Shown: piece after piece, positions 52,878-57,123 of the stretch
Layout: every line of letters starts with the position of its first letter
Numbering within the stretch: the stretch's first letter is position 1
From: SAR86 cluster bacterium
GTDB lineage: Bacteria > Pseudomonadota > Gammaproteobacteria > Magnimaribacterales > Magnimaribacteraceae
Assembly: GCA_023703575.1 (NCBI GenBank)
Contig: CP097969.1
Span: 715,517-779,516, forward strand
Direction: 5' to 3'
DNA: 64,000 nt
Notes under the pieces: model-generated
What the model was told of the DNA's origin: nothing
Databases searched by the model: none
The model's input: only the letters and a program-made list of their open reading frames with translations
Translations under genes and position numbers: made by a program

Positions 52878-53711
52878 ATGATTCCCGCAGATAATAATTT
52901 AGTGTTTAGACCAGAAAATATCAACACTTCGTCTGAATCGTGTATATCAATTATCTTGAGAAATCAAGAATTCTTAACATCTAAGGCATCAGAAGTCTTG
53001 TTATTTGAAGATGATGATCTTAAGTGGTCTGAAATGGAATTTTCACATCGACATTTCTTAGGTTATCTCAACAACAGACCTTGCTTTGTTAGGTGTTTAA
53101 AAGACTCTTCACCAACAGCACAAGACACTATACTAAGTCCTTTAAGAAGTCTCCTTGGAAGAATACCTGATACATTGTTCACAATTTTCTCCAGATCACT
53201 CCAGATAGACAACTGGTATATCTCTAATCAATTTTGTGGAAGTTGTGGTAAGGCTGTAAAGCCTCATGAAACTGAGCGGGCTATGATATGTGAATGTATG
53301 AATAAGCTTATATATCCAACTATTTCACCATGTATCATTGTACTAGTAACAAATGGTGAGGAACTCTTATTAGCTCATAATAAGAATTTTCCTGGTGAGT
53401 TTTACAGTACTCTAGCAGGCTTTATTGAACCTGGTGAATCCGCGGAATCAGCGATTGAGAGGGAAGTGTTTGAAGAGGTGAGTGTAAGAGTTAAAAATAT
53501 TACTTATTATGGAAGTCAATCTTGGCCTTTTCCGAGTCAACTTATGCTCGGATATCATGCAGAATATGATGAAGGAATTATTAGTCCCGATGGAGTAGAA
53601 ATTGATAAAGCAGGTTGGTTTAACTTTAAAGATTTACCCCAAGTTCCAACAGGAAATATTTCTATTTCAGGAAAGTTAATTGAAAGTTATATTGAAAAAT
53701 TAAATGGTTAA
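52878..53711 (+). CDS. nudC: NADH pyrophosphatase / RNA-decapping Nudix hydrolase
   Basis: NudC hydrolyses NADH and removes NAD caps from RNA. The 277-residue product has an N-terminal domain, a zinc ribbon (Cys120, Cys123, Cys138, Cys140), a Nudix box from Gly181 to Val203 (GFIEPGE..REVFEE) and the NADH signature SQSWPFPSQLM. The second zinc pair is CxC rather than the usual CxxC, and the Nudix-box glycine after EE is Ser202. Both changes look mild. The stop is shared with rne in TTAA (53708-53711). Confidence 0.94.
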   Translation: MIPADNNLVFRPENINTSSESCISIILRNQEFLTSKASEVLLFEDDDLKWSEMEFSHRHFLGYLNNRPCFVRCLKDSSPTAQDTILSPLRSLLGRIPDTLFTIFSRSLQIDNWYISNQFCGSCGKAVKPHETERAMICECMNKLIYPTISPCIIVLVTNGEELLLAHNKNFPGEFYSTLAGFIEPGESAESAIEREVFEEVSVRVKNITYYGSQSWPFPSQLMLGYHAEYDEGIISPDGVEIDKAGWFNFKDLPQVPTGNISISGKLIESYIEKLNG

Positions 53712-55972
53712 GATTTATTTCTGGGATCATTTGAAGCTCTTCCCCAATCTTTTGCACTTTTAACCTTTTCTTTAACCTCAGTTTCTTTAACTATATCTGG
53801 TTTAGACTCCTCAGAAACTCCTGTATTCGTTTTATCCTTTTGTAAAGACTCAACTTCAACAGATTTTTCAATCCGTTTATTCTCTACCCTATGACTTTTC
53901 TTTGCTTCTTCCTTCGAAGGTTTTTGTTTGCTATCGACCTGGATATTATCAATATCTTTATCAGCAATATTTTTCTTAACATCATCCTCTTTTGGCTTCC
54001 TTGATTCTTTATTAACTAATTTACTTTGAAATTTTTCCGCATCTTGTTTATTTTGTTTGTGAGAAACTTTCTTTCCAGTCTGTGATTTTGGTTTAGAGTC
54101 TTTAGTTTGAAAATCTTTTTTATTTTCTCTAGATTTTTCTCTATTTAAATTTTTATTTTGAGGTTTTTGGATATCTTTATTTCCAAGATTAGGTTTAGAT
54201 CTTCTTTTATTCTGATTATTGTTATCAGAGTTAATTTTATCTAGACGAGTGTCATTGGATCGCGAATTATTTCTATTTTGTTGTTTCCTATTTCTGTTAT
54301 CTGGTCGCCTCTTATTCCTTTGATTTCTCTTACTTGATTTTGAATTTGATTTCTTATCATCTTTTGACTCAAATAAATTCAATAATTTTTTAAATAAACT
54401 TTCGCCTTTTTTTTTGGGTTTTTTTGGTGGAGTAAGATTTACTGCAGGTTTTTCAAATTTAGGTTTTTTATAAGTTTCTTTATTTGCACCATTAGCTCCA
54501 ATCTCGCTTTGAATATCATAGCTTGTATTATCTTTGGTTTTCTTTCCACCGGTTTTAAGCCTACTAACTTCAAACCTATTATCAGAACGGGTAGGATCAG
54601 AGACAACTATTACTCTAGCATTAGTCCTTTCTTCAATTTCGTTTACTCTGCCTCTTCTCTCATTTAGTAAAAATGTAGACATATCAGATGAAACCACAGC
54701 TCTGACTTCTCCACTTTTCTTTTTACTTGCCTCTTCTTCGATAAGCCTAAGGACTGCTGTAGATAAACTAGCAACATCCTGTGTCCATCTCTCTTGCAGG
54801 GAAGGCCTTAGCCTTTGTCTGGACATTTCCATCAAGCCAAATCTAGATATTCTACCTACTTGAACTTTTGCTCTATCTATTGAAAGAGCTGACCATAATT
54901 TGTCTTCAACTGCACGCTTATTTTTTAGAGAAAGCATATCTATAAAGTCTATTACTACGAGACCTCCGATATCCCTCAGTCTTAGTTGCTTGCCTATCTC
55001 AACAGCAGATTCTATGTTTGTATTTAATGCTGTTTCTTCTATATCACTACCACCGGTAGCCTTTGCTGAGTTAACGTCAATTGCAACTAAGGCTTCTGTT
55101 TGGTCTATTACTATAGATCCTCCGCTTGGAAGAGAAACTTCCCTTTGATAGGCGGTTTCTATCTGACTTTCAATCTGATATCTGGTAAACAGGGGAATGG
55201 TCTCATCATATTTCTTAATCTTTTCTTCGAAGTCTGGCATTAATTTAGAAGTAAAATCGTGAGCCTTTTCAAATTCTTCATCAGTATCAATTAAAACTTC
55301 CGTAATATCATCTCGCAGAAAATCTCTTAATGAACGTGATACGAGGTCATTTTCACGAAAGATTAGGAAGGGAGCCTTTCTTTGCTGATTAGCTTCTGTA
55401 ATTGCATCCCATAGATTCACTAAATAGTCTAAATCCCATCTTAATTCTTCCAAAGAAACGCCATCACCTGCAGTTCTTACTATTAAACCCATATCTTTTG
55501 GAATATTGAGTTGTTTAAGCTTATCTCTTACTTCATCTCTAGCCTTTCCTTCAATGCTTTTAGAAATTCCGCCTGCTTCAGGACTATTTGGCATTAAAAC
55601 TAAATAATGACCGGGTAGAGATATAAATGTACTTATTGCAGCTCCTTTTGTTCCTCTCTCTTCTTTTTCGACTTGGATGATAATTTCATCACCTTGTGTC
55701 AAAATTTCATTAATAGGAGCTTTTTGACTTTTGCCTTTGTAAAATCCTGGATGTAGTTCTTTGATGGGTAAAAATCCATGTTTTTCTGAACCAAAATCAA
55801 CAAATGCTGCACCCAAACTTTGTTCTACGCGAGATACACGTGCCTTATAGATATTTGATTTTTTTCTTTCTTGACCAACTTGTTCTATGTCGAAGTCATA
55901 TATACTTTGACCATCAACAAGTGCTACGCGCAACTCTTCTGGCTGAGTTGCATTAATAAGCATTCTTTTCAT
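53708..55972 (-). CDS. rne: Ribonuclease E (lacking the zinc-link)
   Basis: The main mRNA-decay and rRNA-processing endonuclease. Of 754 residues, the S1 domain lies at about 35-120, a 5'-sensor/RNase H-like region at 120-280, and the DNase I-like catalytic part has Asp299 (VAIDVNS) and Asp342 (VIDFIDM). The CPxC zinc-link that joins subunits is replaced: PSLQERWTQDVASLS (390-404) runs straight into LRLIEEE. The small domain ends near 490. A membrane-binding amphipathic helix (GESLFKKLLNLF, about 520-535) and an Arg/Lys/Asn-rich RNA-binding scaffold end in GRASNDPRNKS. The ribosome site lies in a palindrome. Confidence 0.96.
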   Translation of the reverse strand: MKRMLINATQPEELRVALVDGQSIYDFDIEQVGQERKKSNIYKARVSRVEQSLGAAFVDFGSEKHGFLPIKELHPGFYKGKSQKAPINEILTQGDEIIIQVEKEERGTKGAAISTFISLPGHYLVLMPNSPEAGGISKSIEGKARDEVRDKLKQLNIPKDMGLIVRTAGDGVSLEELRWDLDYLVNLWDAITEANQQRKAPFLIFRENDLVSRSLRDFLRDDITEVLIDTDEEFEKAHDFTSKLMPDFEEKIKKYDETIPLFTRYQIESQIETAYQREVSLPSGGSIVIDQTEALVAIDVNSAKATGGSDIEETALNTNIESAVEIGKQLRLRDIGGLVVIDFIDMLSLKNKRAVEDKLWSALSIDRAKVQVGRISRFGLMEMSRQRLRPSLQERWTQDVASLSTAVLRLIEEEASKKKSGEVRAVVSSDMSTFLLNERRGRVNEIEERTNARVIVVSDPTRSDNRFEVSRLKTGGKKTKDNTSYDIQSEIGANGANKETYKKPKFEKPAVNLTPPKKPKKKGESLFKKLLNLFESKDDKKSNSKSSKRNQRNKRRPDNRNRKQQNRNNSRSNDTRLDKINSDNNNQNKRRSKPNLGNKDIQKPQNKNLNREKSRENKKDFQTKDSKPKSQTGKKVSHKQNKQDAEKFQSKLVNKESRKPKEDDVKKNIADKDIDNIQVDSKQKPSKEEAKKSHRVENKRIEKSVEVESLQKDKTNTGVSEESKPDIVKETEVKEKVKSAKDWGRASNDPRNKS

Positions 55973-56205: not shown

Positions 56206-57123
56206 ATGGAAGAAATTTTTCATCAAGTATCATCATATAAAGTAACTTCTGATTTCGAAGGGGTAAGGCTTGATAATTGTTTAATTTCAAAGCTAAAAGG
56301 GCTTCCAAGAACAAAAATTTACTCCATTATCAGAAAAGGTGAAGTAAGAGTAAATAAATCGAGAGCCAAACCAAGTCAAAAGCTTAAATTAGGAGATTTA
56401 ATTAGAATTCCACCCTACAAACAGTCTATTAAGGTGTCGGGCATAGCATCAAGGAAAGATAAGGACAAAATTTTTGAATCTATAATAAAAGAGGAGAAGG
56501 AATTTTTAATATTAGACAAACCTGAAGGTATAGCATGTCATGGAGGGAGTGGAATTTCTTTTGGAGTTATTGAAGTAATAAGAAAGATAGATAATAAATA
56601 TAAAGATGCTCATCTAGTTCACAGAATTGATAGAGATACTTCTGGCTGTCTTGTAATTGCACTAAAAAAATCTTTTTTGAGAAAATTGCATGAAGAGATA
56701 AGAAATAAGCATGTAGATAAAATCTATGATCTCATTGTTTTCGGAGAGTGGCCAAAGAGCTTAAAAAGTATAGAAGCTCCATTATCTAAAGAAAAAATAG
56801 GTTCAGGAGAGAAAGAAGCCGTTATTCACTCAGATGGAAAACCATCTATAACTCAATTTCAGGTTATCAAATCAACACAAAAATTTTCACAGTTAAAAGC
56901 AAAAATCTTAACGGGTAGGATGCATCAAATAAGAGCTCACACTAAATTCCAGGGATATCCAATTGTAGGAGACAAAAAATATGGTGACGAGAATCTTAAT
57001 AAAAGTGAGAGAAAAAACGGTTTAAATAGAATGTTACTTCATGCCTTTTCAATCAATTTTAAAAACCTTGGTATAGAGTGTACTGCGGATACACCAAAAC
57101 TATTCTCTGAGATAATGTCATGA
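56206..57123 (+). CDS. rluC: 23S rRNA pseudouridine synthase, RluC family
   Basis: RluC makes pseudouridines 955, 2504 and 2580 in E. coli 23S rRNA. The 305-residue product has an N-terminal S4 RNA-binding domain (about 15-75), then the synthase domain with catalytic Asp144 in HRIDRDTSG, KIYDLIVFG and GRMHQIRAH. It is divergent from rne, as in E. coli, where rluC also faces rne. It overlaps yceD by 4 bases. Confidence 0.94.
   Translation: MEEIFHQVSSYKVTSDFEGVRLDNCLISKLKGLPRTKIYSIIRKGEVRVNKSRAKPSQKLKLGDLIRIPPYKQSIKVSGIASRKDKDKIFESIIKEEKEFLILDKPEGIACHGGSGISFGVIEVIRKIDNKYKDAHLVHRIDRDTSGCLVIALKKSFLRKLHEEIRNKHVDKIYDLIVFGEWPKSLKSIEAPLSKEKIGSGEKEAVIHSDGKPSITQFQVIKSTQKFSQLKAKILTGRMHQIRAHTKFQGYPIVGDKKYGDENLNKSERKNGLNRMLLHAFSINFKNLGIECTADTPKLFSEIMS

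Follow-up and report, generated by a model that had tools for sequence, protein, structure and literature searches.

The window, the whole stretch of 64,000 nucleotides analysed here, comes from a bacterium of the SAR86 cluster, which NCBI places in Gammaproteobacteria. As shown in Table 1, it carries an intact rne gene, and the encoded RNase E scored above the cut-offs of the Rne/Rng models PF10150 (25.5 bits) and TIGR00757 (471.8 against 325.95), as well as those of the S1 domain (22) and the small domain (26.8). The catalytic residues D303, N305 and D346 of E. coli RNase E have their equivalents in D299, N301 and D342, the two aspartates being intact as an earlier note on this DNA had stated, and those of the 5' sensor (R169/T170) in R166 and T167, which were invariant in alignment A2. 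Residues 1-476 aligned with E. coli RNase E by phmmer (2bx2 and others, E ~1e-163), and PRK10811, the full-length NCBIfam equivalog 'ribonuclease E', matched residues 1-511 with 655.8 bits, below its threshold of 908. The PF10150 search of the genome (1.59 Mb, 95% complete) returned one Rne/Rng match, and at that completeness a second RNase E/G was rejected. The amphipathic stretch behind the small domain may resemble a membrane-targeting helix.

The open reading frame beside rne (56206-57123, + strand) encodes what we take to be an RluC-type pseudouridine synthase, presumably the usual divergent neighbour of rne. No rne 5' UTR element turned up close to the gene in the Rfam search, whose single match was a sub-threshold snoRNA. 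Convergent with rne lies a gene that reads as a NudC-like Nudix protein (52878-53711, + strand); the zinc-ribbon motif of this protein has CxC (CEC) as its latter half in the window and among near relatives, and CxxC in some other SAR86 loci.

Table 1 Features of the rne gene and of related loci (window coordinates unless a contig is given).
Feature	Position	Strand	Remark
rne, RNase E, 754 aa, intact ORF	53708..55972	-	
S1 RNA-binding domain, PF00575, residues 37-115	55628..55864	-	31.2 bits
RNase_E_G catalytic domain, PF10150, residues 118-387	54812..55621	-	323.7 bits
Asp299	55076..55078	-	E. coli D303
Asp342	54947..54949	-	E. coli D346
PSLQERWTQDVASLS, residues 390-404	54761..54805	-	where E. 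coli has the Zn-link
Trp396	54785..54787	-	found in 40/40 f1/f3 rows
Small domain, PF20833, residues 398-471	54560..54781	-	58.9 bits; match from profile position 12
Amphipathic stretch, residues 521-538	54359..54412	-	hydrophobic-moment scan
Ribosomal L31/L36 loci (L271, L272)	G000:C1:89522-89755 and 1224172-1224285		

The original paper on the Zn-link is Callaghan 2005. In RNase E of the E. coli type this link is a CPxCxGxG motif with two cysteines, and the enzyme is a zinc-dependent homotetramer. The window's protein has neither the motif nor any cysteine in its 754 residues, confirming what the earlier note had claimed for positions 54740-54850, and the place of the E. coli CPRC motif (404-407) is taken by PSLQERWTQDVASLS. 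Since the protein lacks cysteine altogether, an alternative cysteine pair serving as the link was rejected. In the phmmer alignment 12 residues of the E. coli protein around its Zn-link had no counterpart, and the linker was 12 residues shorter than that of E. coli. The catalytic half has otherwise the same parts as in E. coli (2bx2, 2vmk, 8b0j), namely S1, 5' sensor, DNase I-like part and small domain, with four small-domain sites that are conserved elsewhere (421, 444, 455 and 482) changed.

Both cysteine columns were gaps in 71/71 aligned rows of the window's order (SAR86-like, families f1-f4), so the loss held in the comparison of related genomes that had been proposed as a check. Among the 61 genomes searched in this order, 50 matched, one in the C-terminal tail alone, and the other 49 were read; the order-level search matched 152 of 199, and 20 more were read (69/152). 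The rows are these 69 genomes together with L120 and L121. L120, 'uncultured SAR86 cluster bacterium AG-319-O13', was the best named relative (catalytic half 86% identical) and probably duplicates the record L012, so that the 71 rows stand for about 70 genomes; in the whole set of rows, including those outside the order, genomes that probably entered twice under two loci were L012/L120, L083/L135 and L190/L236 (identical rows). L121, titled Rhodospirillaceae bacterium NAT66, has an SAR86-type rne (85% identical) and is probably mislabelled. One unread match of the order, G103, had two stops inside.

The linker took the form 'SLxxRWxQDvxsLS' in f1/f3, 'SLxEtYDIxHvxVRGxrS' in f2 and 'ALNDLMGKTvWVRSvaS' in f4. 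The same type (RWxQD) was present in 40/40 f1/f3 rows, which rules out a frameshift, chance and the sequencing deletion that the earlier note had considered; with an open 754-aa frame, a conserved core and conservation across the order, the chance that a sequencing error or a decayed gene lies behind the result is negligible. In alignment A1 all 13 f1/f3 rows had R395, W396, Q398 and D399 without exception, and by this conservation the f1/f3 replacement linker is under constraint. In the careful tree f1/f3 stood apart from f2/f4: only 2% of the 200 bootstrap replicates joined them in one clade, and the starred branches forced two changes. The AU test did not reject a single clade (p 0.43), and SAR86 may have lost the Zn-link once or twice. 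The f4 rows (L043-L049, L266-L269) also had an invariant cysteine at offset 25 past the SRQR serine (11/11); one cysteine per chain makes no CxxC.

In other gammaproteobacteria, with the families that contain losers set apart, both cysteines were found in 141/141 aligned rows outside the window's order. The class search matched 182/185 genomes, and 70 were read, the choice being non-random and guided in part by low score and small genome size. Two of these rows were moved to their families and four were dropped before counting (L076-L078, RNase G-like with CPxC, and L079, with an unreadable linker); the rows left had both cysteines in 64/64. The named loci had them in 77/80, the exceptions being two SAR86 loci and L190; L237 was dropped as the same gene as L100. 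The phylum search (146/150 genomes matched) showed CxxC by pattern in all of its best 30 loci, which were mostly RNase G-like by length.

Loss of the Zn-link recurred in parts of two gammaproteobacterial families with small genomes, f42 and f133. In f42, 11/12 genomes matched and L190, the single cell AG-447-N20, made 12 rows; both cysteines were kept in 8, and the pair was G/Y in 3 and G/D in 1, CHLC being substituted by GHLY or GHLD. In NCBI the AG-447 series of L190 also has a cell listed as SAR86. These losses probably represent three genomes, not four, because the L190 and L236 rows are identical. The four loser rows (L190, L230, L236, L239) also had Arg/Lys in the LRLIEEE small-domain helix where the keepers have Leu. 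In f133, 11/14 genomes matched, L246 was dropped as truncated, and the 10 rows were divided into five with both cysteines and five without. A quick tree of 88 rows, many of its branches weak, needed 6 changes of state. The observation on the window's enzyme is thus a general one, and these repeated losses, which the earlier note could not show from one sequence, are the more interesting part of the result.

One explanation of such recurrence is relaxed constraint, in which the tetramer is dispensable in reduced genomes, the Zn-link erodes, a plain dimer works and the linker Trp has no clasp role. The loss indeed takes different forms, deletion or the substitutions of f42; the losers are listed with genome sizes of about 0.9-1.8 Mb (several incomplete); and Caruthers 2006 reportedly describes a peptide without the tetramer domain that retains core catalytic functions. 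Erosion does not predict the nearly invariant f1/f3 linker, however, and 19 of 20 small-genome alphaproteobacteria read keep CxxC, so we regard this explanation as rather doubtful.

The exception among those 20 genomes (≤1.4 Mb), G633, was found in the class of G409, taken as Alphaproteobacteria, where the sample search matched 140/142 genomes. In the order of G633, 72/78 genomes matched, and CxxC was absent in 48/48 read. The SAR11 16S probe SAR11-441R matched with at most 2 mismatches in 13/16 tested genomes of family f295 (9 exact; G633 with 2 mismatches), compared with 0/7 of family f335 and 0/15 others, and the one site checked falls within a 16S rRNA match. On these probe matches f295 is most likely SAR11; f335 belongs to the same order by the tool's grouping only. 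RNase E of this probable SAR11 order is like the window's in lacking CxxC and in a linker about 11 residues shorter than that of E. coli, and like the f1/f3 lineage in an invariant linker Trp; it differs in belonging to another class, in its other linker letters and in a more diverged small domain. A short RNase E has been noted in Pelagibacterales (PMC5436854), in a paper that uses neither the word zinc nor Zn-link.

If the SRQR serine is given offset 0, the linker Trp was at offset 12 in 40/40 f1/f3 rows and at offset 11 in 48/48 of the SAR11-like order, an invariant Trp at offset 11-12 in 88/88. Among 139 Zn-link rows, any Trp within offsets 4-29 occurred in 2 and an aromatic residue at 11 or 12 in 6; across ten of these proteins the share of Trp among all residues was 0.5%. 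The f2 rows had Tyr at offset 12 (20/20) and the f4 rows Trp at offset 17 (11/11), and no Trp was found at the corresponding linker place of the f42 losers; a Trp clasp is therefore not a general feature. To judge from the linker letters, this pattern is suggestive of convergence on a linker Trp in f1/f3 and the SAR11-like order, the independent lineages being few and the f42 losers lacking Trp. As a tentative extension, the unrelated SAR86 and SAR11 may each independently have swapped the zinc clasp of their mRNA-decay enzyme for a short linker that carries an invariant Trp, leading to a metal-free assembly insensitive to zinc and thiol oxidation; we hold this possible but short of probable.

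We then compared change between domains, using the limits given for E. coli in the passages of PMC2631609 available, at the sites where 140 Zn-link rows show at least 90% conservation (162 core, 7 Zn-link and 15 small-domain sites). In f1/f3 a single core site of the 162 had changed, as against all 7 Zn-link sites and 6 of the 15 in the small domain; the difference between small domain and core was strong by Fisher test (8.5e-7; 1.8e-5 at an 80% threshold and 1.3e-5 at 93%), sites in one lineage not being independent trials. In f4 the counts were 26/162 against 7/15 (p 0.009). The small-domain excess was absent in f2 (9/162 against 2/15, p 0.24), and the f42 losers showed no significant one (7/162 against 2/15, p 0.17); the f42 keepers had 5/162 against 1/15 (p 0.42). 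Counted per sequence, mean change at conserved sites in core and small domain was 3.5% and 5.1% in Zn-link rows, 6.5% and 43% in f1/f3, 8.7% and 14% in f2, and 17% and 50% in f4.

The PF20833 score was also lower for the window's protein than for the Citrobacter one (109.7 bits), part of the drop being the deletion itself, since the profile includes about 12 Zn-link positions. Other losers scored 39.7 to 80.2 bits, the good score of 80.2 belonging to the f42 loser L190, and two f133 keepers 74.6 and 75.4. The cut-off was passed by 3/9 tested SAR11-like proteins versus 10/10 tested (of 19) Zn-link small-genome alphaproteobacteria, whereas PF10150 scores of the two groups overlapped (318-332 versus 291-345).

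A monomer model of the window's RNase E had a mean pLDDT of 76.2, with residues 387-398 below 50. VIA aligned 456 residues of this model to 2bx2 (Z 33.5, rmsd 16.4), the high rmsd probably coming from different domain placement in the model. A control model of the Zn-link-bearing Citrobacter enzyme (pLDDT 78.7) was also below 50 at 392-401 and 409-411, so the low confidence in the linker is no evidence.

According to the available passages of PMC2631609, each monomer supplies one CPxCxGxG motif and the two motifs together bind a single zinc; the DNase I subdomain provides most of the dimer interface, and the small domains join one dimer to the other; and mutation or deletion of the E. coli motif prevents tetramers and substantially reduces activity. 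The passages seen of PMC12510024 call the motif well conserved in alpha- and gammaproteobacteria and report that Caulobacter C461A/C464A slows ctrA mRNA decay (half-life 3.14 vs 0.67 min). That mutant, like the window's enzyme, is without both Zn-link cysteines, but it is engineered, whereas the SAR86 state is natural and fixed. The earlier claim that assembly must differ stands with respect to zinc, but 'must' is too strong, as both interface domains are present. Assembly is very probably altered, since the Zn-link is gone and, in the window's lineage, the conserved sites that changed lie mostly in the Zn-link and small domain; with the DNase I subdomain and the small domain both present, an enzyme without zinc could still form a dimer or tetramer similar in shape.

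Our main reading, to which we assign a probability of roughly 0.6, is that the window's RNase E is active and zinc-independent, and the sole Rne/Rng enzyme detected in the genome. The zinc clasp being absent in the window, in those relatives of its order that were read and most likely in SAR11, RNase E of these bacteria probably assembles and works without zinc. The catalytic dimer would be held by the self-complementary DNase I interface; the shorter linker with its invariant Trp (ERWTQD) might pack near the dyad and replace the shared zinc, perhaps as a Trp clasp; the small domains would still be in mutual contact in a changed manner; and the oligomeric state of RNase E would in that case cease to depend on zinc.

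Zinc sparing, in which surface-ocean lineages shed a zinc site under zinc scarcity, could also account for the losses seen both in SAR86 and in the order that is probably SAR11, and the available text of PMC4771312 describes zinc as extremely scarce in pelagic surface waters. The signs in the genome were mixed overall: the sole L31 matched is without the CxxC zinc cysteines (one Cys), but L36 keeps its own, and zinc-knuckle-like motifs occur elsewhere in the window. Half of the SAR11 genomes in PMC4771312, as far as its passages show, have high-affinity zinc uptake genes, so zinc is still needed there, and habitat and genome reduction are confounded. We therefore consider zinc sparing improbable as the cause.

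The natural, repeated Zn-link loss with a preserved catalytic core stands against the damaging cysteine changes in E. coli and Caulobacter. Among the literature matches listed (titles, abstract starts and passages), no natural Zn-link loss was found, and mention elsewhere is possible. The natural losers are ready-made clasp-free homologues, and with them the extent to which catalysis needs the tetramer can be tested directly. SAR11 bacteria are very abundant in the ocean; if the SAR11 assignment holds, they would run mRNA decay without the zinc clasp. In one SAR11-like genome the 16S rRNA match (L344:1-1916) spanned 1916 bases for 1314 model positions, which suggests an insertion of roughly 600 bases.
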